Part shown: piece after piece, positions 14,659-53,456 of the stretch
Position numbering within the stretch: position 1 is the first letter of the stretch
How the letters are laid out: every line of letters begins with the position of its first letter
Assembly: GCF_026191725.2 (NCBI RefSeq)
Contig: NZ_CP120863.1
Coordinates: forward strand, 5,126,001 to 5,190,000
Direction: 5' to 3'
DNA: 64,000 bases
Origin: Roseibium porphyridii
GTDB taxonomy: Bacteria > Pseudomonadota > Alphaproteobacteria > Rhizobiales > Stappiaceae
Notes under the pieces: model-generated
Databases searched by the model: none
Told to the model about the DNA's origin: nothing
The model's input: only the letters and a program-made list of their open reading frames with translations
Translations under genes and position numbers: made by a program

Positions 14659-16272
14659 TCAGACAAGGTTTCGATAGCTGAAATAGTCAAAGTCTGCCGT
14701 TTTGGCCTGACCGGACGTATCCATCGCGTGCATTCCGACAAAAGCACCGGTGAAATTGCCATGAGCACCGCGGCCCGCAGCTTCGTCGGACAACAGAGTT
14801 GCATCAAATGCCGGACCGATCCGGTCCCAGTCACTTCCGGATGTCCGATACCAGAATCGCAGAGCCATTTCCTCAACTGTGACTTTCAATGCAACGGGAC
14901 CGCTTTCCGGCAACGAAACGGATTCTTGCAGAGGCGCTTTGATATGTCCCTCCGGATCGTCACCGGGAGAGCTCAGAATTGTCAGAACGCGCCCCTTAAC
15001 CTCGTCATGCGTTACAGCAAGATAGAAAAACTGCAATTGACCGTAGTATGCGATCAGTCCGGCTGTCTGTTGAAACGTTTCCGGTTGAAAATCGACAAGA
15101 GTTTCAGCCTCGTAGTCGTAGTGTGTCTGCCGCCTGGCAACAAACGCCTGTTCGAACCAGCTGCCAACGGATTCGCGTCCAAAGAGCCTCAAATGACCCG
15201 GCCGCTCCCTGAGCGAAAACAAACGGTCAGGATAGGGTGTGCGTAGCCACTGAAAAACATCCGGGAGTTCAGGACTGTCGAATTCATGTCGAGCGATTTC
15301 CTCTGGGAATACATGTTCCGGCAGGTTCGGTCCTGGTACGCTCGATTGTGGCGCAACACCGCCAGCTTCCAGCCGCAACCATCCATCATCGCCCCAGACG
15401 CATTTCTGGATCGCGGTCTCTCGACCCATCTGACAACGATCCTGACCAAGACGTGGTCGCCCCATCAAATGCACCAGATAGGTTTCACCAGTCTGGGTTT
15501 CGACAAAATCACCGTGCCCAGCCCTTTGGATCGGGTTGTCCGGATCGAACCGTGCCGTGACAACATGTTGTTCAGGATGGACGTCATATGGCCCACCAAT
15601 TTGCCGGGATCTGGCTAGTGTCACCGCGTGATCATAGGCAGTCCCTCCCTCTGCGGTCAGCAGGTAGTACCAACCATCACGCTTATAAAGATGCGGGCCT
15701 TCGGTCAGGGCGAGCGGAGTGCCCTTGAAAATATTCTGGATGGGTCCGATCAATGCCTGTTTGACGGGATCGTATTCCTGAAGCGCGATGCCGGCGAAGG
15801 AATTGTGGCCCACCCGATGGTCCCAGATCATGTTCAAAAACCATTTGCGTCCGTCTTCATCATGGAATAGCGACGGATCAAAGCCTGAGGAATTTGTGTA
15901 GACAGGATCTGACCAGGGACCCTCGATGTCAGGAGCGGTAACAATATAATTGTGCGCATCCTTGAAGGATCCGTCTTTGCGTTTCACATCTGTGTAAACA
16001 AGCCAGAAAAGACCATCGGCATAGGTGAGGCAAGGTGCCCAGATACCGCAGGAGTCCGGATTGCCGCGCATGTCCAATTGCTCGGGCCGGGTCAACGGAC
16101 GCATAACGAGCCGCCAGTTTTTCAAATCCCTGGAATGATGGATTTGAACGCCCGGAAACCATTCGAAGGTTGACGTTGCGATGTAGTAGTCGTTTCCCAC
16201 CCGGCAAATGGACGGATCAGGATTGAATCCGGGCAGGATGGGGTTTTGAATATCCTGAGGTGCGTTACTCAT
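14659..16272 (-). CDS. GH43 beta-xylosidase
   Basis: 537-residue glycoside hydrolase family 43 enzyme of the XynB type (five-bladed propeller plus C-terminal beta-sandwich). Catalytic residues are visible: base D19 in GFNPDPS, pKa modulator D132 in GFDPSLF, acid E191 in TEGPHLY. There is no signal peptide, so it is likely cytoplasmic and acts on imported xylo-oligosaccharides. It lies 62 bp downstream of a LacI-type regulator on the same strand, suggesting one transcript. No xylose transporter is present in the window. Confidence 0.9.
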   Translation of the reverse strand: MSNAPQDIQNPILPGFNPDPSICRVGNDYYIATSTFEWFPGVQIHHSRDLKNWRLVMRPLTRPEQLDMRGNPDSCGIWAPCLTYADGLFWLVYTDVKRKDGSFKDAHNYIVTAPDIEGPWSDPVYTNSSGFDPSLFHDEDGRKWFLNMIWDHRVGHNSFAGIALQEYDPVKQALIGPIQNIFKGTPLALTEGPHLYKRDGWYYLLTAEGGTAYDHAVTLARSRQIGGPYDVHPEQHVVTARFDPDNPIQRAGHGDFVETQTGETYLVHLMGRPRLGQDRCQMGRETAIQKCVWGDDGWLRLEAGGVAPQSSVPGPNLPEHVFPEEIARHEFDSPELPDVFQWLRTPYPDRLFSLRERPGHLRLFGRESVGSWFEQAFVARRQTHYDYEAETLVDFQPETFQQTAGLIAYYGQLQFFYLAVTHDEVKGRVLTILSSPGDDPEGHIKAPLQESVSLPESGPVALKVTVEEMALRFWYRTSGSDWDRIGPAFDATLLSDEAAGRGAHGNFTGAFVGMHAMDTSGQAKTADFDYFSYRNLV

Positions 16273-16334
16273 TCATTGTCTCCAAAATGCTCACGCTCAT
16301 ATTCCAGGGTCTCACGGAGTGTAGGGCGTTGTTC

Positions 16335-17390
16335 TCAGACTGGTTGGGTGAGTTCGGGACTTTCCGGCAAATTGTCCTTCAAAAACACATCGATACCGAT
16401 GCGTTCCTGCCCCTCAATGATCGGTGCGCCATCGCTGAGCGCCTTCAGAACCCGGATCGCACTGCGAATTTCGTGTCCAGGATCCTGCGCTATCACGGCG
16501 TCAAGAATGTTCAATCTCAGGGCCTGGCTGGTATAGGGTGTCAGTTCATGCCCCACAAAGACGATGTCACGCGCACGCCCTGAGGCCTGCAAAGCAGCAA
16601 TCGCGCCACGGTTTCCTGCGCCAATGTTGTAAAGACCGGCCACATCCGGGTGGTCGTTCAAAAGCCTTTGAACCAGATCCTGGTTGCGCGCGTTGTCATC
16701 GCGCCCTTCGCGCACTTTCAAAAGCTCCAGATGAGGGAAATCCGCCTCGATCACGGACCGGCAACCGGCAAAGCGATCCGCATGATCCCGCAACCCGAGT
16801 GAGCCCGCTATAAGACCAATCTTTGCCGGCTGACTTGGTAGGAAACGCCCAAGAAGCCGCCCTGCTGTCCTGCCGGCGGCCACATTGTCGATGCCCACAA
16901 AATGTTGACGTGTCGAAGATGGATGATCCGACACAAGCGTGACCACCGGCACTCCACGATCCTGAAGCCTGTCAATTGCCGCGCGCACTTCCGGGAAAGC
17001 CGGAGCAACGACCGCAACACCGTCGCAAACCGAACTGTCCAGAATGGCCAGGGTCCCAGCGACACGGTGGCCATCGAACGCATCAATCGGCTCGACATGG
17101 ACATGCATCCGGTCGCTGCTCAAGGATTGCGCATGGGTGGCAGCTTCGCGGGTCAGGTCTTCCATGAAGGCATTCGGACCGTTGGGGATCAGGAAATGGA
17201 AACGGTAAAGGCGCTTCTTCGCAAGCCCGGCAGCAAACACATCGGGCTTGTAGTTTAACGTGTCGACAGCCTTCTTGACCTTTTCGATGGTTGTTTTGCG
17301 CACACCCGGGCGTCCGTTCAGCACCCTGTCAACGGTTGCAAGGCTAACGCCGGCTGTTTCGGCCACATCGTGTATCGTTACGCGCTTCAT
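16335..17390 (-). CDS. LacI-family transcriptional regulator
   Basis: 351 residues. The LacI HTH and hinge occupy residues 1-60 (TIHDVAETAGVSLATVDRVLNGRPGVRKTTIEKV), followed by a periplasmic-binding-protein-like sugar domain. Gene order (regulator then GH43) suggests control of xyloside use, but the effector is unknown. A perfect palindrome 57 bp upstream of the start is a plausible autoregulatory site. Confidence 0.88.
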   Translation of the reverse strand: MKRVTIHDVAETAGVSLATVDRVLNGRPGVRKTTIEKVKKAVDTLNYKPDVFAAGLAKKRLYRFHFLIPNGPNAFMEDLTREAATHAQSLSSDRMHVHVEPIDAFDGHRVAGTLAILDSSVCDGVAVVAPAFPEVRAAIDRLQDRGVPVVTLVSDHPSSTRQHFVGIDNVAAGRTAGRLLGRFLPSQPAKIGLIAGSLGLRDHADRFAGCRSVIEADFPHLELLKVREGRDDNARNQDLVQRLLNDHPDVAGLYNIGAGNRGAIAALQASGRARDIVFVGHELTPYTSQALRLNILDAVIAQDPGHEIRSAIRVLKALSDGAPIIEGQERIGIDVFLKDNLPESPELTQPV

Positions 17391-17446
17391 TCCGACCTCT
17401 TCTCCGGCGCAAGTATACCGACGAATGAGGTGCGGTCATCAAAAAA

Positions 17447-17460
17447 TACGCATCTGCGTA
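17447..17460. promoter_or_regulatory. Putative LacI-type operator
   Basis: TACGCA-TC-TGCGTA is a perfect inverted repeat upstream of the LacI gene, flanked by A residues on both sides. Size and symmetry fit LacI-family sites. Confidence 0.5.
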
Positions 17461-17489
17461 AACTGCTGTAGCTATTAATTATTTCTGGG

Positions 17490-18668
17490 TCAGACGACCT
17501 GCCCCGCTGCATGGCCCGAAGACCAGGCCCACTGGAAGTTAAATCCGCCAAGATGCCCGGTGACATCGACCACTTCGCCAATGAAGTAAAGGCCTGATAC
17601 CTTGCTGGCCTCCATGGTTTTTGACGACAATTCCCTGGTGTCGATACCGCCAAGCGTCACTTCCGCGGTTCGATACCCTTCTGTTCCGACCGGTGTCAGT
17701 TGCCAGCGGTTCATTTGCTCACCGGCCCGGCGCAGAACCTTGTCTGATTGGTCCGCAAGCCGGCCCTTGAGCTTGTAAACTTCTGCGAGTTCATCTGCCA
17801 GCCTGTTCGGCAGCAGGGAGCCAAGAGCAGTCTTGAGGTCCTGTCTTGGCACCTCGTGCCGCGCTGTCTTCAAGACATCGAACACATCCGCCTCGGGAAC
17901 AAGATTGACCGAAATCGGCTTGCCTTCCTCCCAATAGGATGAAATCTGCAGGATCGACGGACCAGAGAGCCCGCGGTGCGTAAACAAAAGCCCTTCGCGG
18001 AAGGTCGTTTTCTGAAACGACACATTCGCGTCCAGTGAAACACCAGCCAGGCGGCCACACAGGTCTTTGTTCGCATCAGAAAAGGTCAAGGGAACGAGAG
18101 CGGCGCGCGGAGCAATAACTTTCAAGCCGAACTGTTTTGCCAGATCGTAGCCGAACCCCGTCGCCCCCATTTTCGGGATGGAGGGCCCACCCGTTGCAAT
18201 AACCAGCGACTGCGTCCTGAGAGGTCCTTTGGAGGTTGAAACGGAAAACCTGTCATCCGGTTTTTCAACGGCTTTGATATCCGTTTCCAACTGAAGCTTG
18301 CCACCGGCGCGTTCCAGTTCGTCAAGTAACATCCGGATGATGTCCTTTGCACTCTCATCGCAAAAGAGCTGGCCAAGCGTTTTCTCATGCCAGGCAATGC
18401 GGTGCTGATCAACAAGTGCCAGAAAGTCATGCTGTGTGTAGCGCTTCAAAGCAGAGACACAAAAACGCGGATTCTGAGACAGGAAATTCGCAGGCGTACA
18501 ATGAAGGTTGGTGAAATTGCACCGCCCGCCACCGGAAATGCGGATCTTGTCGGCGGGTCGTTTGGCATGGTCGATCACCATCACCTTGCGCCCACGCTTG
18601 GCCGCCTCAATCCCGCACATCAAACCCGCGGCTCCGCCGCCGAGCACCAATACATCCAGATCACGCAT
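17490..18668 (-). CDS. HI0933/BaiN-like FAD flavoprotein (second copy)
   Basis: 392 residues. FAD-binding LVLGGGAAGLMCGIEAAKRG at the N-terminus, the family motif KIRISGGGRCNFTN (about 42-55), and C-terminal LGGFNFQWAWSSG near the flavin. It is diverged from the copy at 2240-3463 and is closer to the YhiN-type branch. The reaction is unknown. It reads in the same direction as the LacI-GH43 genes but is about 100 bp upstream of them with an operator between. Confidence 0.83.
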   Translation of the reverse strand: MRDLDVLVLGGGAAGLMCGIEAAKRGRKVMVIDHAKRPADKIRISGGGRCNFTNLHCTPANFLSQNPRFCVSALKRYTQHDFLALVDQHRIAWHEKTLGQLFCDESAKDIIRMLLDELERAGGKLQLETDIKAVEKPDDRFSVSTSKGPLRTQSLVIATGGPSIPKMGATGFGYDLAKQFGLKVIAPRAALVPLTFSDANKDLCGRLAGVSLDANVSFQKTTFREGLLFTHRGLSGPSILQISSYWEEGKPISVNLVPEADVFDVLKTARHEVPRQDLKTALGSLLPNRLADELAEVYKLKGRLADQSDKVLRRAGEQMNRWQLTPVGTEGYRTAEVTLGGIDTRELSSKTMEASKVSGLYFIGEVVDVTGHLGGFNFQWAWSSGHAAGQVV

Positions 18669-18752
18669 GGGCGGCTGTATAGCGGCTTTCAGAGGCAGCG
18701 GTAAGAGATAACTTCATCTCGTTCCGGATCAAAGTTCGGCGGTCAATTGTCG

Positions 18753-43460: not shown

Positions 43461-44081
43461 TCAAAGCCCATTGCTGACGCTCATATTCTGTTCGCTTTTC
43501 AGGCCGTCGACATAGGTCTTGATCAGTGTTTTTGCCAGAGTAAACGCGGTTTCACCGTCTTGAAGTCGACCGGAGCCTTCCAGGATAGTCATGCCAAAAA
43601 GGCTCATCCACAAAACACGTGCATGTTGATGAATTTCGGTTTCGCTTTGATCCGACAGAATGGGTGCGAGCGTGCTTTCGATGATGGCAAGCAGCCTGGA
43701 GACCTTCTCTGAAAACCATTCGGGCACCGGCCGGTCTTCGGGCAATTTATGTTCAAAGATCGCGTTCCACAGCTTTGGGTATTCATGTGTGAAACTCAAA
43801 TAGCAATGTACGAGCCTTTCCAGGTCCATAGTCGGGTTCTGTGTGAGCTCGACCTTTGAAACTGCCTCCATGAGCTGATCCAAAGTCTCCCCATTCATAT
43901 GCATGATGAGATCATCGAGATCCTCGAACAAATTGTACAAAGTCCCAATCGTATACCCGATATCACGCGCAATCTGTCGGGCACGAAGGCCTCTAAGGCC
44001 TTCTTTTTCAACGATCTTCCTTGATGCATCTATGGCAAGCCACCACAGCTCTTCGCGCGTATGATCAGACCGTCGGGCCAC
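43461..44081 (-). CDS. TetR-family regulator
   Basis: 206 residues from a GTG at 44081 that has TGGAGA 5 bases upstream; a TTG four codons earlier overlaps this site. TetR HTH: GLRGLRARQIARDIGYTIGTLYNLFEDLDDL. The C-terminal ligand domain is of the WHG type. It is divergent from the VIT/VWA gene, and two perfect palindromes lie between them, so it very likely represses itself and that gene. Confidence 0.88.
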   Translation of the reverse strand: MARRSDHTREELWWLAIDASRKIVEKEGLRGLRARQIARDIGYTIGTLYNLFEDLDDLIMHMNGETLDQLMEAVSKVELTQNPTMDLERLVHCYLSFTHEYPKLWNAIFEHKLPEDRPVPEWFSEKVSRLLAIIESTLAPILSDQSETEIHQHARVLWMSLFGMTILEGSGRLQDGETAFTLAKTLIKTYVDGLKSEQNMSVSNGL

Positions 44082-44107
44082 GTCTTTCTCCAAGAATCAT
44101 CAAAAAA

Positions 44108-44122
44108 ATGAACATTGTTCAT
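44108..44122. promoter_or_regulatory. TetR operator 1
   Basis: ATGAAC-ATT-GTTCAT, a perfect palindrome just upstream of the TetR start. It shares its GAACAT/GTTC core with a second site 29 bp away. Confidence 0.7.
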
Positions 44123-44136
44123 ATTTTATCTTGAAA

Positions 44137-44151
44137 TTGAACATCGTTCAA
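44137..44151. promoter_or_regulatory. TetR operator 2
   Basis: TTGAAC-ATC-GTTCAA, a perfect palindrome about 70 bp before the VIT/VWA start. Its centre is 29 bp from that of operator 1, close to three helical turns. Confidence 0.7.
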
Positions 44152-44221
44152 TTTATTTAAATGAGCACTGATCAATTATCAGTCATTGCACTTCGAAACT
44201 TCACGAACGGGAGTATTCATC

Positions 44222-46354
44222 ATGGTTCAGATCTCAAGAGACTGGTGTGCCGCAACGGCATTTGCTGCAGGGCTCTGCTTGAGCGTCTCAGCTGTATCAC
44301 CGGCCAATGCTGTTGGCCTGCTCACGCCATCTGATCAATCGCAGTCGCTGGATCTTCTCGATCACAGGGTGAGTGTGGTGGTGGAAGACGGTTACGTGAT
44401 GACCACGGTCAATCAAACGTTCAGCAATCCGCACACAAGTGACATGGAAGCGACTTATTCGTTTCCAGTTCCGCACAAGGCCGCTGTTTCGGAGTTTACC
44501 TACTGGATTGACGGAAAACCGGTATCGGCCGAGGTCGTCGACAAGGAAAAGGCCCGTCAAATTTATGAAGGTGAGAAACAGGCAGGCCGGAACACCGCGC
44601 TTGCGGAGCAGGATGACTACAAGACTTTCGACATCAGTGTCTGGCCGGTGCGCGGCAATGATGACGTTGATATTCGCTTCTCTTACATCCAACCGGCAAA
44701 ACTCGACACAGGTATTGGCCGATACCTTTATCCGCTCGAAGAAGGCGGCGTCGACGAGGAAAAACTCGCCTTCTGGACCGCCAAGCAAACCGTAACCGGG
44801 ACGTTCAGTTTTGATTTGCATTTGCGGACGGATTATCCGGTCGAAGCCGTTCGCCTGCCGAAGCACCCTGGAGCTCAAATTACACAGGAGCAGGATGGGA
44901 GCTGGCGCATTCACATGAGTAATACGGACCTGGCAGACGGTCTGGCGAAAGACGCCGACTTGGATTTGCAACCGTCCCAGCCCATCGATGAAACCGGCAT
45001 CAACGAGGGCGAAGCAACGGCAAGCCGCATCCCAGTGACACTGGATCAGGACATCGTCGTCTATTGGCGGCAAGCGCAAAATCAACCGGCGCGCGTCGAT
45101 CTGGTGCCCTACAAGACAGATCCATCCGGTCGCGGAACGTTCATGCTGACTTTAACGCCGGGGATGGATCTCAAGCCTATCACCGAAGGGCGTGACTGGA
45201 TCTTTGTTCTGGACCAGTCAGGATCCATGGGAGGCAAGATCGCAACGTTGAGCGAAGGCGTCGCGAAAGCGCTCGGAAAACTAAGGCCAGAAGACCGATT
45301 CCGGATCATCTTTTTCAACAACGATACAACTGAGCTTACAAACGGTTTCACTCCGGCATCCCCCGACCAGATCACACATGCGCTGAACAGCATCCACAGC
45401 GTTCAAGCCGGTGGCGGCACCAACCTTTATGCCGGACTGAAGAGAGGTCTCGATGCCCTGGATTCCGATCGCACGGGCGCCATTGTCCTGGTGACTGACG
45501 GCGTTGCAAATGTGGGCACCACGGAGACCAAAAAATTCCTGGAGCTGGCGCAGCAAAAGGATGTTCGTCTGTTCACTGCGATCATGGGCAACAGCGCCAA
45601 TGAACCCTTGCTTCAACCGATGACGGATGCTTCCGGCGGCTTTGCGCTCAGAGTTTCGAATGCTGACGACATTGTCGGCACCCTCCTGCAGGCAACATCA
45701 AAGGTTACGCACGAAGCCCTCCATGGCCTGAAACTGGATTTGACACAGAAGGACGGGTCGCTGCGTATCAACGATATCAGGCGGCGCAACAATCCGTCGC
45801 TCTATCGCGGTGAGCAGCTGGTTCTGTTTGGTCACTATTGGGGAAACGGCGAGGCTTCGTTCAAACTCACTGGCGAAATCTCAGGGTCTCCTGTCAGTTA
45901 CGAAACCAGCTTCACCTTTCCCGAAACAGCCAAACGCAACCCTGAAATCGAACGTCTATGGGGCTATGCGCAAATCGAAAAGGACATGCAGACCCTCGCT
46001 CTTCTTGGCCCCGACGCGGACCTGAAAACGTCCATTGTCGACACGTCGAAGGAATACGGAATTCTGTCTCCCTATACGTCGATGTTGATCGTTGAAGAAG
46101 CGCGGTTTGAAGAACTTGCGATTGACCAGACCAACAAAGAGCGTCTTGCCACCGAGCAGGTTGCCCAACAGGAGCGCAAGTCAAAGCCGGTCCAATCGAC
46201 CCGTGTCGACACGAAGAAGCCAATGTTCAAGGGCAACCAACCAAGCCACTCGGGTGGTGGTGGCGGCGGCTCCGGATCACTGGGCATCCTGGGTCTGCTG
46301 TTGGCACTCTCTGCATTGACCATCGGCCTCAAAATGCGCCGTCGGAACGCATGA
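44222..46354 (+). CDS. VIT/VWA surface protein with GlyGly-CTERM tail
   Basis: 710 residues from ATG 44222; an earlier in-frame ATG is 12 codons upstream. A signal peptide ends near SPANA. A VIT domain (about 35-170) and a VWA domain (about 325-500) follow, with the MIDAS motif DQSGSMGG intact. The C-terminus is a tripartite sorting signal: six glycines, a hydrophobic stretch (LGILGLLLALSALTIGL), then KMRRRN. This matches GlyGly-CTERM, the substrate tag of rhombosortase, whose gene follows directly. VIT/VWA proteins of marine proteobacteria usually carry a sortase motif instead; no LPXTG-like motif is seen here. Confidence 0.88.
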   Translation: MVQISRDWCAATAFAAGLCLSVSAVSPANAVGLLTPSDQSQSLDLLDHRVSVVVEDGYVMTTVNQTFSNPHTSDMEATYSFPVPHKAAVSEFTYWIDGKPVSAEVVDKEKARQIYEGEKQAGRNTALAEQDDYKTFDISVWPVRGNDDVDIRFSYIQPAKLDTGIGRYLYPLEEGGVDEEKLAFWTAKQTVTGTFSFDLHLRTDYPVEAVRLPKHPGAQITQEQDGSWRIHMSNTDLADGLAKDADLDLQPSQPIDETGINEGEATASRIPVTLDQDIVVYWRQAQNQPARVDLVPYKTDPSGRGTFMLTLTPGMDLKPITEGRDWIFVLDQSGSMGGKIATLSEGVAKALGKLRPEDRFRIIFFNNDTTELTNGFTPASPDQITHALNSIHSVQAGGGTNLYAGLKRGLDALDSDRTGAIVLVTDGVANVGTTETKKFLELAQQKDVRLFTAIMGNSANEPLLQPMTDASGGFALRVSNADDIVGTLLQATSKVTHEALHGLKLDLTQKDGSLRINDIRRRNNPSLYRGEQLVLFGHYWGNGEASFKLTGEISGSPVSYETSFTFPETAKRNPEIERLWGYAQIEKDMQTLALLGPDADLKTSIVDTSKEYGILSPYTSMLIVEEARFEELAIDQTNKERLATEQVAQQERKSKPVQSTRVDTKKPMFKGNQPSHSGGGGGGSGSLGILGLLLALSALTIGLKMRRRNA

Positions 46355-46998
46355 TGACCGGTATTCTTTCCTCTCTCTCCCATGGCGGCTCAAAGCTGCC
46401 ATGGGTTTCCTTCGCCCTGGCTGCGATTTGCCTGGCTTTCTTCGCTGTACTCGGCGGTAAACCTGAGGCTCTCATCTATGACCGGGAGCTGATTGAAAAC
46501 GGAGAGGTCTGGCGGCTCGTGACTGGCCATTTCGTTCACCTGGACCACCAGCATCTACTCATGAATGTCGGTGCCCTGATCGCACTCGGATTTCTTTATG
46601 AAACCTCCCCGCATGGTGGTGCGCGCAGGCTCATATTGGGTTGCTTCGTTCTTTCCGGCAGCCTGGTTTCTTCCGTCTTGTTTCTTGGTGACCTCAAGAC
46701 ACAGTTCTATTGTGGCTTATCGGCAATCCTGAATGCGCTTTACATGGTCACGATGATTGCAATGTGGCGTGAAACACGCAGCCGGATATGGCTTGTTGGC
46801 CTCGGCCTCCTGTTCGCAAAAACTGGATATGAAGCTCTGTTTGGCTCGGTCTTTTCAAGCAGTCTCGAATGGCCCCCCCATATCGGCGCCCACCTCACCG
46901 GGCTCCTCTCAGGCACACTGCTTTTGTCTTCGGACTATGTGAAAGGAGGCTATTTGAGACTGAGACGATCTTACGTCAGCGCCTTTGAACCCAGCTAG
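46351..46998 (+). CDS. rrtA: Rhombosortase (rhomboid-family intramembrane protease)
   Basis: 215 residues, about six hydrophobic segments. Rhomboid hallmarks: GHFVHLDHQHLLMN, the serine nucleophile in CGLSAILNALY, and the catalytic histidine in HIGAHLTGLLSG. The short length and overlap (ATGATG) with a GlyGly-CTERM gene identify it as rhombosortase, which cleaves the C-terminal tag of its substrate in the inner membrane so that the protein can be processed to the cell surface. The pair is probably controlled by the divergent TetR protein. Confidence 0.85.
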   Translation: MMTGILSSLSHGGSKLPWVSFALAAICLAFFAVLGGKPEALIYDRELIENGEVWRLVTGHFVHLDHQHLLMNVGALIALGFLYETSPHGGARRLILGCFVLSGSLVSSVLFLGDLKTQFYCGLSAILNALYMVTMIAMWRETRSRIWLVGLGLLFAKTGYEALFGSVFSSSLEWPPHIGAHLTGLLSGTLLLSSDYVKGGYLRLRRSYVSAFEPS

Positions 46999-47329
46999 GC
47001 GCGACGGGTGCCAGATTTGGGTTTTTGTCTGGACATTGCGGTTCTCCACGATGGGCGTCGAAGGTCTGTTCTCCGATCCTCATCCCGGCACGGCAAGCCA
47101 TCCGCATTCTCACTCTGCAAGCGCGCGCGGCGGTGTGTCCGCAGCACGCGAATGACTCACTCCTTCTGCTTGGTTACACGGTAGTCTTCGCCTCGCTGCG
47201 AATGCAGCAGTGCAACCAGTGGCTCTGAAGCATCGACTACATAACGACAGTTTGGGGACCGCATGCGGAATGACGGGTTGCGTCCAAAAAAGTTGTAGAA
47301 GCAGACGTTCACCCATAACGAGTTCGCGG

Positions 47330-47400
47330 TAGATTTCGGCCCAAAGCGGTCATTGGTGTCTCGTGCAACAAACGTCCACTTCGAGCCCAAAGTGCAAATT
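47330..47400. repeat. Degenerate dispersed repeat, left copy
   Basis: A 60-70 bp segment containing TCTCGTGCAACAAA-CGTCCACTTCGAGCCCAAAG. It matches TCTCTTGTGCATAAAAGGTCCGTTCTGAGCCCAAAT near 51390 in order and spacing, with several differences. Confidence 0.4.
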
Positions 47401-47683
47401 ACTGCACCGTGTATCAATGCCGGAAGTGCGCAGGAACCGGACTTTGCAAACTCGTAGACGGCACTACCAATCTCATTCGATGTGGCCCCGAAGCTGTCGT
47501 TGATCGCAGCCTCCGATGCTGCAATGCAGTTTCTTCGAAGCGGACCCTAGTCGAACCAGAACCATTCACGCGCTTTAGACGACCCCAATTTTGGGAATTG
47601 TGTATCCTCGTGACCTGGCCAGAGCTTCCCTAAATTCAACATCAGAACTTGAAGTGGTCACCATAACCGCTTAAGAAATGAAG

Positions 47684-47700
47684 GTGGGTATTGTACCCAC
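47684..47700. promoter_or_regulatory. Putative autoregulatory operator of the HTH gene
   Basis: GTGGGTA-TTG-TACCCAC, a perfect 7-bp inverted repeat 43 bp before the HTH start codon. It is the only strong palindrome in front of the operon. Confidence 0.65.
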
Positions 47701-47743
47701 TCAAGCAAGGCAACGGACTTCTACCAGTTGAGAAGGGTTATTC

Positions 47744-48199
47744 ATGATCGCAGCAGGACAGGTCCAGAAACTTACTGATTTGACCGCCAACCAGTTGCGT
47801 GAGTGGTCACAACGGCGCGACCTTGTACCACCAGACGTCGAAGCACAGGGGCCGGGTCGCCCAGCTCTTTATAGCTGGCAGACAGTATTGTTGCTTCGGT
47901 TGGCTGTCGTCTTGCGAGAGAAGTTTAAAATTGAGTTGCAAGCTCATAAAGATCTACTCCACGCATTGCGTGATCTCTTTTCCGGTGCTCCGTTTCCAAC
48001 ACTGCGTGGCTCCATGCTTGCTCTCCGTGCCATGGAGCACGGCGAGATAGTCCCAGAGGGTATGGTCCGCGTGGGTAGTGATGACGCAGATACCCTGTTC
48101 CTGCGTCTTGATCCGCATCTCGACGTTTTGGAGGCCGAATTTTCGCCACAAGATCAAAGCGACCAGTTTCCATTGTTTCGTGCGGTGCAGGTTCGATGA
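47744..48199 (+). CDS. MerR-like helix-turn-helix regulator of a defence-like operon
   Basis: 151 residues. Residues about 8-60 form a MerR-type winged helix (LTDLTANQLREWSQRRDLVPPDV ... GRPALYSWQTVLLLRLAVVLRE). The remainder is predicted helical and mixed, with an acidic end, and matches no ligand domain I recognise. AAGGG precedes the ATG. The stop overlaps the methyltransferase start (ATGA), and a perfect palindrome lies upstream, so it probably controls its own operon. Confidence 0.75.
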   Translation: MIAAGQVQKLTDLTANQLREWSQRRDLVPPDVEAQGPGRPALYSWQTVLLLRLAVVLREKFKIELQAHKDLLHALRDLFSGAPFPTLRGSMLALRAMEHGEIVPEGMVRVGSDDADTLFLRLDPHLDVLEAEFSPQDQSDQFPLFRAVQVR

Positions 48200-50694
48200 A
48201 CGCGCTTGCCTCCATAAAGAGTGGACTTCGTGAAATCGGCTATGAAGCCGAGGCGATGCATCATGCCTATAGTTTTGCAGATGTACTCGAACAAGGCGCG
48301 ACCACTCGAACGGTTGCCCTTGCAGCCTTCACTCAAACACCTGAATCCTTTCGGTCAGCAGCATTTGGGGTTGTTCAGAATGAACCGAACAGCGCCTCCG
48401 CGATCATGGCAAACAGAGCTCTTGGCGCTCCCATCTTTTTTTCCATTGACGATGAAGATGTTGGGGTGTGGGCAGTGGACGCACGCAATGCGCCTCGTCT
48501 CATCGAACGTCTGCCAGTTGAGAAATTGCCCGACCTGTTCGCACGCAATCGCGAAATTTGGAGCCCACAGGCGTTACATCGGGCAAAATCCGTAAGCCTT
48601 CCCCGCGATGCAGTTCAGACTGATTTTATCGATTTGGGCTTGCTGCCTGCGATTGAGCAAGAAGTGCAGCTTAAGCTCCACCAAACTATGGCAGAAGTCC
48701 TCGAACTACTAATGCCCCAGAACAGCGATCAAGATGATGAAAAAGCAGCTTTCCGGCTAACTTTCCGTTTGCTTGCTGCAAAAATCCTCATTGACCGAGA
48801 GCACCCAGCGGCCGCAGGTTGGGAGGCTGATGATGTAGAAACGGTCTTGGAAGGAATACAAGGCTACTACGGTCTCAAGCTCCTTGGAGCTGACGTGGCT
48901 AATGTCAAAGCAGATCATGTTTCAGCAGCTTGGGCGCGATTGAGAAGCGCGATTACTTTGCGGAACATATCCTCGGACAGTCTTGCATTTGTCTATGAAA
49001 ATACACTGGTAACCGCTGATACCCGAAAGCTCTTTGGTACGCATAGCACGCCCCGGTCAATTGCAGAGTATGTGCTCCGGCGGATCAATCTATCACGCTT
49101 CGACCCTAAAGCTGTGAGGATTGCTGAGCCTTTTGCTGGTGCTGGTATATTTTTAGTTGCAGCCATTCGTGAACTTCGTGATCTATTGCCTCACAGTTGG
49201 TCTGCAGAACGGCGTCATCAGTTCTTAGTGGAACGTCTGATAGGAGCTGAACTCGACGTATTCGCGTGCGAAGTTGCAACGCTTTCACTTATTTTGGCCG
49301 ATTACCCTAACGCCAATGGCTGGCACGTGGGTTCGATAGACCTATTTGAGCAGAACGAACTCGAAGAGTTCCTCACGGACTCAACCATCGTTCTCTGCAA
49401 TCCACCATTTGAAGACTTTTCGAAGGCTGAAAGAAATGATTATCCGAAAGCCGTTACTACCTCGCCGTCTAAAGGAATGGTCGCGCTTAGCGCCGCCATA
49501 GACGCCGCACCGGAGGCCCTCGGTTTTGTGTTGCCACGCGGTGTACTTCAGCAGAGCAAATACAAAAAGCTTCGAAAGCGGCTTGCAGCCACCTTTGAAA
49601 GCATCGAGCTGGTTTCGCTACCTGATCGAATCTTCGAAAAAGCTTCGTTTCCGTGTGCTCTGGTAATCGCAACGGACCGCCGACAAAAAGCAGACATTTC
49701 GAAACCTGTAAGACTAACATCGAAAGCTGTGTCGGATGCAGACGGAAAGAAATTCCTTACTTGTGGCGCGGTGACGTCAACACGCCAAGTATTTCGGACC
49801 GCACAGACAGGTGATTTATGGATCGGGGAACTGGCCTCACTATGGACATATCTTGAAGACAACCCACGGCTGGGAAACTACGCGGAAATTGCTCGGGGTC
49901 TGGAATGGCGTTCTCAAAGGGCTGGTGTATTAGACGAACCGGGACCAATGGCAAAGCGCGGGGTCTATAGACCCATCGACAGCCTTGCTCCATACCGTCT
50001 GAGAAATCCAGTTTGGCTCAACTCAGATCCTGCTCAAAATTACAGACGAGGACCTTTGGGGAGGCCTTGGGATGCGCCGAAGGTCCTTATTAATAAAAGC
50101 CGTGTTTCTCGAGGTCATTGGCGACTTGCCGCAGCGGCTGATGAGAATGGACTTTGGGCATCCCAGAAGTTCATTGGAGTTTGGCCTTCCGCTGAGTATG
50201 ATATTTATGTGCTCGCAGCGGTCCTTAATGGACCATTAGCTAATGCATTTGTCACTGAACACTCAACTGATCACGACTTCACCAACGTGATGCTCTCAAG
50301 CATGCCGTTGCCGACTAAGTTGGATACTGAAGCGATCAAGGAAGCAGTTCTTGAGTATCAAGATGCTATTGACCAACAGCAGCAAACACTGCTCTCCAAC
50401 GATGATTACAACGAAAGACTGAATAGCCTCCTTTTGTGGATCGATGCGCTCATCCTAGACGGTTATGATCTTCCGCCGCGCCTCGAGCGACAACTACTCA
50501 CCTTTTTTGACGGCCATGAACGGCCAGTTCAACATAATTTTCAAGGCTGGTTACCGGAGGATACGAAGGGATATGTTCCTCTATATGAACGACTAACAAG
50601 CGACGAAAAAACCAACCGTGGAAGCTGGGTGCTTGATGTGTTCAAACCCGTGCCTGATGAAGAGAATGACGCAATTGCAAGGTTTATCGCTTGA
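48196..50694 (+). CDS. Adenine-specific DNA methyltransferase-like protein (type IIG/ISP-like, no nuclease seen)
   Basis: 832 residues. The core methylase has FGTHSTPRSIAEYVL (280-294), SAM motif I EPFAGAG (311-317) and catalytic motif IV NPPF (402-405), as in N6-adenine enzymes. The C-terminal half (about 540-830) resembles a target-recognition region of TaqI/Eco57I type. The N-terminal about 270 residues are unassigned; I see no PD-(D/E)xK motif or helicase. Codon use is AT-richer than the surroundings, suggesting transfer. It overlaps the HTH gene by 4 bp and the PIN gene by 1 bp. Confidence 0.78.
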   Translation: MNALASIKSGLREIGYEAEAMHHAYSFADVLEQGATTRTVALAAFTQTPESFRSAAFGVVQNEPNSASAIMANRALGAPIFFSIDDEDVGVWAVDARNAPRLIERLPVEKLPDLFARNREIWSPQALHRAKSVSLPRDAVQTDFIDLGLLPAIEQEVQLKLHQTMAEVLELLMPQNSDQDDEKAAFRLTFRLLAAKILIDREHPAAAGWEADDVETVLEGIQGYYGLKLLGADVANVKADHVSAAWARLRSAITLRNISSDSLAFVYENTLVTADTRKLFGTHSTPRSIAEYVLRRINLSRFDPKAVRIAEPFAGAGIFLVAAIRELRDLLPHSWSAERRHQFLVERLIGAELDVFACEVATLSLILADYPNANGWHVGSIDLFEQNELEEFLTDSTIVLCNPPFEDFSKAERNDYPKAVTTSPSKGMVALSAAIDAAPEALGFVLPRGVLQQSKYKKLRKRLAATFESIELVSLPDRIFEKASFPCALVIATDRRQKADISKPVRLTSKAVSDADGKKFLTCGAVTSTRQVFRTAQTGDLWIGELASLWTYLEDNPRLGNYAEIARGLEWRSQRAGVLDEPGPMAKRGVYRPIDSLAPYRLRNPVWLNSDPAQNYRRGPLGRPWDAPKVLINKSRVSRGHWRLAAAADENGLWASQKFIGVWPSAEYDIYVLAAVLNGPLANAFVTEHSTDHDFTNVMLSSMPLPTKLDTEAIKEAVLEYQDAIDQQQQTLLSNDDYNERLNSLLLWIDALILDGYDLPPRLERQLLTFFDGHERPVQHNFQGWLPEDTKGYVPLYERLTSDEKTNRGSWVLDVFKPVPDEENDAIARFIA

Positions 50695-51191
50695 TGGACC
50701 ACATTCTTCTCGACACGAATTTTGTGTCCGTACTGTTTGATCCTCGACGCCCAAATTACAACGCCGTTGAGGCTCGTGCCCAAGCATTTGGAAAAACTGA
50801 CCTTGTCTATCTCTCAGCCATTGTTTTGGCGGAGCTTCGCTACGGAATGGAAGCGGCTCAACGCCTTGGACAAGACGTCTCCAATATCCGCAGAATCCTC
50901 ACTCAAGCTGGATCATTTCCGCTAGCAGAAGTCGGCCGCCACACTTCCGAGGCCTACGGAGACGTCAAGTCTCGGCTTGCAGATCACTACTTAGATATGT
51001 CACGCCGCATACCGAGATGGTTGGAAGATTGGTCGGATCGAGCTTCCAGCAAAACCCTTCAAGTAGATGAAAATGACCTTTGGATTGTGGCGCAGGCCAT
51101 TGAGCGAGACTACCTACTGGTAACAAGTGACCAACGTCTGGCGGATCGGTTTTGTCCAGCCATTCCGGAACTCAGGATATCAGTGGTCTAG
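50694..51191 (+). CDS. PIN-domain nuclease (VapC-like)
   Basis: 165 residues from ATG 50694, which overlaps the methyltransferase stop (TGATG); a TTG one codon earlier is less likely. The four acidic residues of the PIN active site are present: D7 (LLDTN), E47 (LAELRYG), D128 (ENDLWIVAQA) and D146 (TSDQRLA). VapC-type proteins cut RNA. No VapB-like antitoxin gene is adjacent; the partner in the operon is instead a methyltransferase and an HTH protein. Confidence 0.85.
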   Translation: MDHILLDTNFVSVLFDPRRPNYNAVEARAQAFGKTDLVYLSAIVLAELRYGMEAAQRLGQDVSNIRRILTQAGSFPLAEVGRHTSEAYGDVKSRLADHYLDMSRRIPRWLEDWSDRASSKTLQVDENDLWIVAQAIERDYLLVTSDQRLADRFCPAIPELRISVV

Positions 51192-51541
51192 CGTGCTGCA
51201 TAATGTCTCCTTTAGTTCGAAACGATTGCAAAACCACATCCGCAGCGAATGACCGCTTTTCGCGGGCTCTTTCGGATCGCTCAGATGCTGTGGCGGCAAA
51301 CGTCATGTCCGCTTTGGGCTGAGACCGGTCCTCAACAACCATTGAACCTACGGCAGCAAAGTCCGCGAAGCAGTCTCTGCTCTCTTGTGCATAAAAGGTC
51401 CGTTCTGAGCCCAAATTGCGTGATGCTGCGCGTTTCGCCAAGGCCAGCTTTTCCGGCCCTTGCGATCTTTAGAGTTGTAGCGGAAGCTCATTTCAAGACG
51501 CGAATTTGAGGTAGAGATGTCAGTGATAGTACAGCCAGTAG
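51192..51541. other. Non-coding stretch after the PIN gene
   Basis: 350 bp up to the transposase remnant. It carries copies of a degenerate GTCCGCTTTGGGCTGA-like element, at about 51230-51320 and 51355-51425. No gene with a ribosome site is visible. Confidence 0.45.
51355..51425. repeat. Degenerate dispersed repeat, right copy
   Basis: Same element and orientation as 47330-47400, followed by AATTGCGTGATGCTGCGC where the left copy has a similar GCAAATTACTGCAC. Together they flank the HTH-methyltransferase-PIN operon. Confidence 0.4.
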
Positions 51542-51769
51542 CCGAGCATGATCGACAAAAAGTCGCGGAGCAACCGGAACGAGAGCGATCATGCCGCTAT
51601 GAAGCCGCTGTTTGGGTATCGTCAGAGCTTTCAGTCTTTGAAATCAGCCAAAACGACACTGAGCGGGATCGAGACGATAAGAACAATCAAACGCGGTTAC
51701 ATCCAGAACAGAAATCCAGGCATCCGCGGCGAGATCCAGTTCATCAGCCAGCTCTTCGAAATAGCATGA
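51542..51769 (+). pseudogene. IS6-family transposase remnant (C-terminal end)
   Basis: The frame reads SDHAAMKPLFGYRQSFQSLK SAKTTLSGIETIRTIKRG and ends QLFEIA, which follows the end of IS6/IS26-type transposases (EQDHR.IK..., GF.SF.SA..T..GIE..H.I.KGQ). The catalytic N-terminal part is missing and a stop codon lies just upstream of the remnant. No terminal inverted repeats were identified. Confidence 0.6.
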
Positions 51770-51833
51770 CCCAATGCGCCGCATCGACAATTGCGCACCT
51801 CAAAAAACGAACGCACCAATCCCGGAGGACGAC

Positions 51834-52886
51834 ATGACAAAGATGACCAAACTGGCCCTAGCTGTCTTACCCTTTATGGCCATGAGCGGGCCGAGCCTTG
51901 CGCAGGATGTCACAATCACCCTGCAATCGGCTTTTCCGACCAGCCTTCCCGTCATCAATACGATCCGGCAGTTCGAAGCAGAGGTCGAGGCAGCCTCCGG
52001 CGGGACAATCCAGATCGAGCTGGCGGAACCTGGTGCGATTGTCCCACCGTTCGACATTCAACAAGCGGTCTCTGACGGCAAGATCGAAGCGGGCTATACC
52101 GCTGCGGCCTACCTTCATGGGTCCTTGCCCGTTGCGTCGTTTTTCACGTCGATGCCGTTCGGGCCGCAAGCGCTCGATTATATGGCTTGGTTCTACGAAG
52201 GCGGCGGGCTCGAGCTCAATCAGCGCATGTATGACGATGCGGGCTTTGACCTCGTGACTATGCCACTAACCTTCACCGGTATGGAATCGGGCGGCTGGTT
52301 CAACTCACCCATCGAAGGGACCAACGATTTTGCCGGGCTCAAGCTGCGCTGGTCCGGGCTTGCCTCGGAAGTGCTGGCAAGCCTGGGTGCGGATACCGTG
52401 CTGATCGCAGGTGGAGAGATCTTTCCATCGCTTGAAGGTGGCGTCATCGACGGGACCGAGTTCAGCTTTCCCCAGGTGGATCTTGCGCTTGGTTTTCCGG
52501 ACGTGGCTTCTTTCAACTATTTCCCCGGCTGGCACCAACCCTCGACGATGATTGAGTTGGTCATCAACCGCGACGTTTGGGACGGCCTGACAGACAGCCA
52601 GCGCACGATCATCGACATGGCGGCCAGAACCAACGCGATGCGTTCGGTCCTGCGGATGGAATACTCACAAGCCGCCGCCGTCGAGCAAATGGCAGAACAG
52701 GGCGTGGACGTCCGCCTTTACAGCCCCGAGACCCTGGACAGCCTCCGGGTAGCCTGGGACACGCTTGTCTCCGAGATGGCCGCGGCCGACCCCTTTGTGG
52801 CAGAGGTCTGGGACAGCTTGCAGGCCGCGCGAACACAAGAAGACACCTGGGACGCCTTAACCGTAACACCTATGCAGCGCCCATGA
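51834..52886 (+). CDS. dctP: TRAP transporter substrate-binding protein
   Basis: 350 residues from ATG 51834 (GGAGG upstream). The signal peptide MTKMTKLALAVLPFMAMSGPSLA is followed by a DctP-type fold, with LKLRWSGLASEVLASLGAD and GGEIFPSLEGGVIDGTEFSFPQ near the ligand arginine. The group binds organic acids. The membrane partners are missing: the next gene is cut after 16 codons, so this protein is an orphan unless another dctQM exists elsewhere. Confidence 0.87.
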   Translation: MTKMTKLALAVLPFMAMSGPSLAQDVTITLQSAFPTSLPVINTIRQFEAEVEAASGGTIQIELAEPGAIVPPFDIQQAVSDGKIEAGYTAAAYLHGSLPVASFFTSMPFGPQALDYMAWFYEGGGLELNQRMYDDAGFDLVTMPLTFTGMESGGWFNSPIEGTNDFAGLKLRWSGLASEVLASLGADTVLIAGGEIFPSLEGGVIDGTEFSFPQVDLALGFPDVASFNYFPGWHQPSTMIELVINRDVWDGLTDSQRTIIDMAARTNAMRSVLRMEYSQAAAVEQMAEQGVDVRLYSPETLDSLRVAWDTLVSEMAAADPFVAEVWDSLQAARTQEDTWDALTVTPMQRP

Positions 52887-52933
52887 TCGACCGTCCCAGC
52901 GCGATCCTTGGGCTTCTGCGCCCGTGGGGCTGA
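52883..52933 (+). pseudogene. dctQ: Truncated dctQ (start only)
   Basis: An ATG overlapping the dctP stop (ATGA) opens a frame MIDRPSAILGLLRPWG and then a stop. This is the expected position and style of a DctQ small permease N-terminus, and nothing further matches a TRAP permease. It is inferred to be the remaining tip of a deleted or replaced gene. Confidence 0.5.
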
Positions 52934-53379
52934 GACGAGCCTATTACACAACATGAAGCCGGGCCACAAAGGGCTCTGACCGGCCATCTTCTGCATTGCG
53001 ACATGAATTGAGTCGGAGCCGATGGTCCCGCCGCTCTTACTTCTTGGGCCAGCGGGATTTGGGCAAGCCAAACGCCCCTGGCCGTCAAGGGGAAGCCGCC
53101 GCCCTTCCCTACAGGCAACCCCATTAGACAGGGCCGTGTCCGCGGCTGCGCCTGTGGGCCACACTACCCTTGTCGAATAGCATTGCCTCGCCCCCTCCCG
53201 CGTTCACCACGTGGCAGATCAGCAGAACAGGCGGTTTCGCCGTCTGAACCTGCAAATCAGACCTGATTTTCTGAATGGGAAGTCAGATCAATCGACACAG
53301 TCCGCGGAAGCAAAATGGGGACGCTGACTCAGTTTATGACGCGAAGGTCAATTTCGTCTGACGTTCAACATGGGAAATA
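52934..53379. other. Non-coding stretch between broken dctQ and tRNA-Arg
   Basis: 446 bp with GC-rich character in the first half and no recognisable gene. It lies directly against the 3' end of the tRNA-Arg gene, where genomic islands commonly join. No integrase or tRNA-end duplicate was seen. Confidence 0.45.
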
Positions 53380-53456
53380 TGGCGCACCGGGGAGGATTCG
53401 AACCCCCGACCCCCAGATTCGTAGTCTGGTGCTCTATCCAGCTGAGCTACCGGTGC
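53380..53456 (-). tRNA. tRNA-Arg (anticodon ACG)
   Basis: 77 nt including an encoded CCA. Acceptor stem GCACCGG/CCGGTGC, D-arm GCTCAGCTGGATAGAGC, anticodon loop CTACGAA giving ACG, and T-arm GGGGGTTCGAATCCTCC are all standard. Its 3' end faces the accessory region on the left. Confidence 0.95.

Follow-up and report, generated by a model that had tools for sequence, protein, structure and literature searches.

A real, recurring cassette for which no name was found is located in a 64,000-nucleotide stretch of Roseibium porphyridii DNA (contig NZ_CP120863.1, positions 5,126,001 to 5,190,000; hereafter termed the window), and its composition suggests that it may be a hybrid that joins toxin-antitoxin logic to that of restriction-modification, with the methyltransferase side controlling the toxin. 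The cassette harbors a three-gene operon for a MerR-type helix-turn-helix (HTH) protein, an N6-adenine methyltransferase and a PIN nuclease, and is preceded by operator-like repeats; the methyltransferase is devoid of a nuclease motif, the PIN nuclease keeps its four catalytic acids, the three genes are coinherited, and the slot occupied by the whole unit varies between strains. We give an even chance to the reading that this is a self-contained, horizontally moving cassette, in which DNA modification is coupled to a PIN-based toxin or defence function and serves as its gate.

Organization and recurrence of the cassette

The three genes constitute one unit (Table 1), in which consecutive open reading frames (ORFs) overlap by 4 nt between the HTH and methyltransferase genes and by 1 nt between the methyltransferase and PIN genes, as had been described in an earlier sequence-only reading of the window (overlaps of 1-4 bp). 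Position 47684, where that reading let the locus begin, falls within an inverted repeat upstream of the HTH gene. Its assignment of a MerR-like HTH protein and an N6-adenine methyltransferase was confirmed by Pfam scores exceeding the cut-offs: the HTH protein matched the winged-HTH family MerR_1 (PF13411) with 29.5 bits (cut-off 21.6), and the methyltransferase matched N6_Mtase (PF02384) with 42.5 bits (cut-off 20.4) as well as MmeI_Mtase. The cut-off for the PIN family match is 23.6 bits. An alternative PIN start, TTG 50691, yields a protein one residue longer than ATG 50694; the latter is preferred because 104 among the 120 PIN relatives listed have a length of 165 amino acids.

Table 1. 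Features of the three-gene cassette and its surroundings (window coordinates).
Feature	Position	Strand	Remarks
Cassette in strain-variable slot	47389..51406	.	GAGCCCAAA at both edges; comparison with G958 (L042)
Operator-like 21-bp repeat 1	47652..47672	+	16/18 to AARYGGGNANNATACCCGYTT; best shuffle 13
Operator-like repeat 2	47682..47702	+	14/18; GTGGGTA-TTG-TACCCAC, perfect 7-bp arms
Degenerate operator-like repeat 3	47710..47730	+	10/18 in the window; 13-15/18 at this place in six relatives
MerR-type HTH protein	47744..48199	+	151 amino acids; CvkR-like fold; predicted operon autorepressor
QFPLF, HTH residues 141-145, beta-clamp-binding-like	48164..48178	+	disordered tail; pattern in 16/16 loci
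N6-adenine methyltransferase, type IIG-like layout	48196..50694	+	832 amino acids; ATGA overlap with HTH gene
N-terminal domain of the methyltransferase, residues 1-130	48196..48585	+	PD-(D/E)XK-like layout without catalytic ExK
Methyltransferase motif IV NPPF, residues 402-405	49399..49410	+	NPPF in 38/58, NPPW in 20/58 rows
PIN nuclease	50694..51191	+	165 amino acids from ATG; TGATG overlap; PF01850 49.5 bits; D7, E47, D128, D146

A match to an already named system would have spoken against the sequence-only reading; no PADLOC (2023) or NCBIfam model of such a system covers the trio. No PADLOC model matched the HTH or PIN protein at E 1 or better, while the methyltransferase retrieved generic type I/II methyltransferase models best, together with weak MAD2 and PglX rows; in NCBIfam, none of the three proteins reached any cut-off. 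The open-licence literature in PubMed Central, covered for such a system and for defence systems that dock on the clamp, yielded no HTH-methyltransferase-PIN system, which does not prove the absence of one.

At E 0.001 or better, at least 1,407 relatives of the methyltransferase were retrieved (7,996 candidates scored), along with 489 relatives of the HTH protein and 256 of the PIN nuclease. The 120 methyltransferase relatives listed, the window's own included, are 51-100% identical and comprise 828-836 amino acids save two (812 and 770). Sixteen distinct loci were chosen with the methyltransferase as the sole query, namely the window, L001-L006, L008, L009, L010, L011-L013 (plasmids), L018, L019 and L025 (one family); they are not all distant, as the methyltransferases of L002 and L006 are 92% identical (766/832). 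The HTH gene stands directly upstream of the methyltransferase gene in all 16 loci, and the PIN gene directly downstream in 15 (those of L002, L004 and L006 were located by tblastn), the exception being L013. The gene order for which the sequence-only reading had proposed a search thus does recur in other genomes.

Across the 15 complete loci, protein distances are correlated for HTH and methyltransferase (r 0.96), methyltransferase and PIN (0.98), and HTH and PIN (0.96), with none of 2,000 permutations as high for any of the three pairs; within the window's group of seven loci, r is 0.91 for HTH and methyltransferase and 0.77 for methyltransferase and PIN. Identity to the window's HTH protein falls as low as 17-19%, with 45-46% for L018 and L019. 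By these distances, the three genes are coinherited and diverge together.

The frequent occurrence of the PIN gene without the methyltransferase, which would have spoken against the sequence-only reading, was not seen: across 318 class genomes, a PIN-subfamily profile gave two matches at E 1e-12 or better, both within the trio; G513, a class genome bearing the trio, is not one of the two, and its inclusion in the 318 is not evident. For the first 83 of the 120 PIN relatives listed, the longest contig measures at least 3.4 kb in 50 cases; its exact size recurs with one among 79 listed methyltransferases in 29 of these, with a methyltransferase or HTH protein in 33, and with neither in 17, where the number of matches expected by jitter is 0.23. 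The cassette is rare, being detected in 1/87 family, 2/199 order, 3/385 class and 3/398 phylum genomes, counts that each include the own genome and come from overlapping sets with differing E limits. In one further count, 3/249 genomes of a single family were positive, the family having been picked since two matches were already known there.

A type IIG-like methyltransferase without its nuclease motif

The motifs EP[FY]xGAG and NPP[FW], which mark a gamma-type N6-adenine methyltransferase, are kept in all 58 aligned rows, while a [DE]xK triplet, as in the type IIG nuclease motif, was encountered anywhere in the first 140 amino acids of only one of them, in line with the earlier remark that no nuclease is visible in this protein. 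Residues 1-130 appear to have their strands and helices arranged as in a PD-(D/E)XK domain, by our own reading of the model against few type IIG rows, and alanine at position 43 (54/58 rows) appears, by our own placing, to occupy the position of the lysine.

In the structure model (mean predicted local distance difference test score, pLDDT, 83.8), the chain combines by fold a nuclease-like part, a helical linker, the methyltransferase and a target-recognition-like C-terminus, which is the type IIG layout. Foldseek ranks the type IIG enzyme BpuSI first, with a poor overall superposition (root-mean-square deviation 19.4); among the families listed in the VIA tables, which define the scope of the fold comparison, HsdM proteins and CamA rank top for the middle part and DrdV spans residues 1-757. 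A sequence-profile search of the solved structures in the Protein Data Bank gave CamA, an adenine methyltransferase, as the best match (residues 257-500) and reached at most residues 257-526, so that it did not extend to the N-terminal domain. The hhalign comparison of alignment A2 with the MmeI-type protein of L005 likewise aligned a methyltransferase part of 117 columns and did not cover the N-terminal domain. Because the methylation motifs are intact and [DE]xK is missing, the protein is regarded as a type IIG-like build without a working nuclease motif, whose cutting role may have been handed over to the PIN nuclease.

The PIN nuclease and its replacement by a RES toxin

The complete D-E-D-D site ascribed to the PIN nuclease in the sequence-only reading is real: D7, E47, D128 and D146, the four acids known from VapBC toxins, show no variation in any of the 29 aligned rows, so the active site is kept. 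The family matches of this PIN protein are VapC-type, with 37.9 bits for NF047863, far below its cut-off of 140.

The exceptional locus L013 (Rhizobium sp. Q54, plasmid 8) bears a RES toxin gene (E 1.5e-16) where the PIN gene is expected, with a 4-nt overlap. Its methyltransferase follows the family up to about residue 778, beyond which come Xre/MbcA/ParS antitoxin-like middle and C-terminal domains (PF23125, E 0.011; PF09722, E 1.5e-4; both below the curated cut-off). RES toxins are partnered by Xre/ParS antitoxins, and L013 has the make-up to be expected of a cassette whose third gene encodes an exchangeable toxin and whose methyltransferase belongs to the antitoxin side. This antitoxin-like fusion ahead of a RES toxin is the one natural case that would link the methylase side to toxin control. 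Used as a query, the L013 methyltransferase retrieved the same three plasmids and no further toxin swaps.

It is conceivable, though unlikely, that the PIN protein cuts DNA, to which the methyltransferase-HTH complex brings it, and obeys restriction-modification logic without toxin-antitoxin behaviour. The type IIG-like layout devoid of a nuclease motif, next to a fixed adjacent nuclease with intact acids, would suit such an enzyme, whereas the VapC-type match of this PIN protein, even if below cut-off, and the RES toxin in the place of PIN in L013 argue against it, since VapC proteins are RNases and the RES toxin is not a DNase.

The HTH protein and the upstream repeats

Tandem operator-like repeats stand upstream of the HTH gene. 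They were scored against 300 shuffles of the upstream stretch, with the consensus AARYGGGNANNATACCCGYTT drawn from these same loci, and the third repeat of the window is at chance level (mean of shuffle maxima 10.5). Ahead of the HTH gene in L009, upstream of position 1013, a perfect 40-bp palindrome with 20-bp arms was observed.

MerR-type chains occupy the top of the VIA table for the HTH protein, and the closest solved fold is CvkR, the repressor of type V-K CRISPR-associated transposons, over model residues 1-135 of 151. The trio differs from CvkR in its operon and in the disordered HTH tail with a QxxLF motif, and the CvkR motif AnnACATnATGTnnT is not at its promoter: with one mismatch allowed, none was found near 47744, and a single match in the window (31762) compares with 0.98 expected. 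Four CvkR proteins are described in the available part of the CvkR report as fused to an hsdR-restriction domain (PMC9938897).

These repeats also bear on a second alternative, in which the HTH and PIN proteins form a plain toxin-antitoxin pair of a MerR-type antitoxin and a VapC-like toxin, the methyltransferase being a separate modification gene. Toxin-antitoxin operons usually have operators and an autorepressor, and the PIN protein is VapC-like; the methyltransferase nevertheless lies between HTH and PIN in all 15 PIN-bearing loci, the PIN subfamily never occurred without it among the 318 genomes, and L013 retains the HTH gene though PIN is lost, which leaves a plain pair rather improbable.

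A putative clamp-binding motif in the HTH tail

The HTH protein ends in a tail that was modelled with pLDDT below 50 at residues 137-146 and 148-151, so that a short motif sits in a loose terminus. Alignment of 44 HTH sequences revealed eight invariant columns, including Q141, L144 and F145. The pattern Q-x-x-[LMIV]-(x)-F is present in all 16 loci, which were picked regardless of the HTH protein. Of the 489 HTH homologues, 120 were listed; 119 of these have the pattern as well, at a distance of 11-24 residues from the C-terminus, and the last one has QASFRF. That list stems from a profile whose 15 rows all carry the motif and therefore favours motif-bearing members. Within the last 30 residues, the pattern occurs in 0/120 methyltransferases, 0/120 PIN proteins, 1/42 other window genes and 4.4% of shuffled HTH tails.

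One HTH set has the five-residue form QLPLF, and another the six-residue form QxxLxF, in which leucine is seldom found at the second position, off the clamp-motif consensus. A six-residue class of clamp-binding motifs exists in addition to the five-residue one. In the excerpts available, the five-residue clamp motif is given as QL[S/D]LF or more broadly QxxLF (PMC12309361, PMC4549789, PMC9690074), and QLSLPL as an example of the six-residue motif (PMC12309361). The HTH tail thus carries a motif of the QL[S/D]LF/QxxLF type in a flexible terminus. Its partner may also be another than the clamp, for example the methyltransferase; the PIN protein is disfavoured as the partner because the HTH protein of L013 retains the motif (QHELAF) though PIN is gone.

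Clamp docking is a prediction, and the most surprising and directly testable feature of the cassette. The extended reading, in which a MerR/CvkR-type subunit docks a nuclease-dead type IIG-like methyltransferase and PIN on the beta clamp so that newly copied DNA is marked, with a swappable toxin, is put forward tentatively, as we would sooner bet against it than for it. The docked complex would mark new DNA leaving the host fork, making it the bacterial equivalent of PCNA-bound DNMT1, and might sense foreign or altered replication, upon which PIN would be released; the toxin, PIN or RES, would be the replaceable part. As far as the available text of PMC9690074 goes, DNMT1-PCNA and SocB-DnaN share with this proposal a short peptide motif that brings a methyltransferase or toxin to the replication clamp, whereas in the trio the motif sits on a small HTH protein and its binding is predicted only.

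Borders, mobility and genomic neighbours

A strain of the same species, G958, resembles the window at 98.5% over 44000-47388 and 97.8% over 51407-53425, and in between 1,064 bp of unrelated DNA (L042 3948-5011) replaces the window segment. Because G958 has other DNA in place of 47389-51406, the trio represents the entire cassette. The sequence GAGCCCAAA is present at the left and right edges of the insert. An ORF in the G958 slot resembles that of a GrpB-type protein, judged by eye, and there may be a small hot spot at this place. The 55-bp intergenic stretch at the insert's left edge (47334-47388) has a second copy, 91% identical, at another place in the same genome (G000:C1:4014654).

The AT-rich composition claimed by the sequence-only reading holds in direction and is mild in extent, with a guanine-cytosine content of 50.8% in the insert versus 56.0% in the rest of the window. 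The transposase remnant invoked there does exist, as an IS240/IS6-type fragment (DDE_Tnp_IS240, PF13610) at 51548-51769 in the right flank outside the insert; since this flank is common to the trio-less G958, the remnant is not part of the cassette and was ruled out as its vehicle.

On the L011 plasmid (pAtA74a), the annotation places genes for a Mu-type transposase, TniB and TniQ (15333-18748) behind the trio and a Shedu gene, and this trio is perhaps transposon cargo. A serine recombinase neighbours the trio in L014, and a relaxase-type protein and a DUF6119 protein in L015.

Neighbouring proteins were scanned with PADLOC, covering 20 hand-picked ORFs from 12 loci, with L001, L002 and L006 left out and the window scanned apart. 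Six of the 20 proteins, from 5 of the 12 loci, matched at E 1e-40 or better: PDC-M60A in L003, a type IIG enzyme in L005, PDC-S28 and SduA in L011, a type IIG-like protein in L013 and SoFic in L016; weaker matches were SIR2 (L004) and SoFic (L013). In the window, none of the 42 other genes reached E 1e-40 (best E 3.2e-31). This neighbourhood supports, without proving, a defence role.

Several of these neighbours deserve separate mention. The PDC-M60A protein of L003 (2123-5581; 1,152 amino acids; 1,488 bits) has no Pfam match; the enzyme directly upstream of the trio in L005 (3595-7269) is of MmeI type, with all four MmeI domains matched; and the protein just upstream of the trio in L011 (6538-9012), annotated as a DEAD/DEAH helicase, is the PADLOC candidate PDC-S28 (1,010 bits). 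An nSTAND3 protein was found beside the trio in L025.

Proposed mechanism and its weighing

Under the reading of a modification-gated cassette, the HTH protein would repress the operon, and the methyltransferase would mark host DNA at a specific site and, together with the HTH protein, hold PIN in check for as long as the host is intact and carries its modification. PIN would be freed when phage or plasmid DNA without the mark comes in, or when the complex is lost, and would cut RNA, possibly DNA, and thereby stop the infection. The cassette would then be a restriction-modification system in which a separate toxin has taken over the restriction step that a fused nuclease once performed. More speculatively, the HTH tail might anchor the complex on the sliding clamp of the DNA polymerase.

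Several observations weigh against this proposal. The E 1e-40 bar for neighbours was set after the results had been seen; at E 1e-4, 6/12 loci have a match, yet several among the 42 control genes also reach this bar, up to 4 for one family and mostly with ATPase-type models. The window itself is not a defence island; the mobility and the defence role suggested by the sequence-only reading have some support from the variable slot and from the defence-gene neighbours elsewhere. Matches in plasmids amount to 3 of 72,556 records at E 1e-30. At E 1e-10, the 50,697 phage records gave none, and in viral contigs 7 stretches matched the pattern with a single sequence as the query and 59 with alignment A1, none of which was confirmed; a phage origin of the cassette was rejected on these grounds. 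The L013 fusion comes from one locus, has domain matches below threshold and could be a chance RES-Xre insertion.

A purely epigenetic regulator, with the methyltransferase controlling host genes and PIN trimming RNA in the same programme without any defence, is suggested by CamA, an orphan methyltransferase, being the best profile match among solved structures, and is nonetheless quite improbable given the sparse distribution, the slot variable within the species and the defence-type neighbours at some loci.

The interpretation of the sequence-only reading is accordingly partly supported, and the nuclease-dead N-terminal domain, the operator-like repeats and the clamp-binding-like tail go beyond it. 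If the modification-gated cassette is real, it would unite restriction-modification and toxin-antitoxin systems in one unit, where an exchangeable toxin, controlled by methylation, stands in for a cutting part that has died, and would offer a common reading for entries that are nameless or labelled 'hypothetical protein', 'N-6 DNA methylase' or 'PIN domain protein' (489 HTH and 256 PIN relatives). If clamp docking also holds, self and non-self would be marked at the replication fork instead of by diffusion.

Comparison with known systems

Type IIG/IIL enzymes (BpuSI, DrdV, MmeI) resemble the trio's methyltransferase in their one-chain layout by fold; they differ in that the latter lacks the nuclease motif and shares its operon with a MerR-type protein and a PIN nuclease encoded separately. 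With VapBC, the trio has in common a PIN protein with all four acids, a small operon and operator-like repeats, whereas its partner genes match MerR_1 and N6_Mtase/MmeI_Mtase and no VapB-type family.

The adenine methyltransferase core is related to those of MADS (MAD2) and BREX (PglX), but the insert contains three genes only, and membership was rejected for both, with 15.0 bits against a cut-off of 720 for MAD2 and 11.9 bits against 500 for PglX. PIN-type RNases beside BREX are mentioned, in the part available, as occasional extra effectors (PMC12839542).

The RptR restriction-modification island, as excerpted, shares with the trio a small repressor, three promoter repeats and a modification operon (PMC12255303); its repeats are 9 bp long around TAGCTA and its repressor is likened to bZIP proteins, in contrast with the 21-bp inverted repeats and the MerR fold of the trio (PMC12255303). 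Among the DefensePredictor systems, the excerpt describes two with PIN domains, namely DS-3, which consists of one protein, and DS-5, which has a DUF5830/AcrIF4-like partner (PMC13092281).

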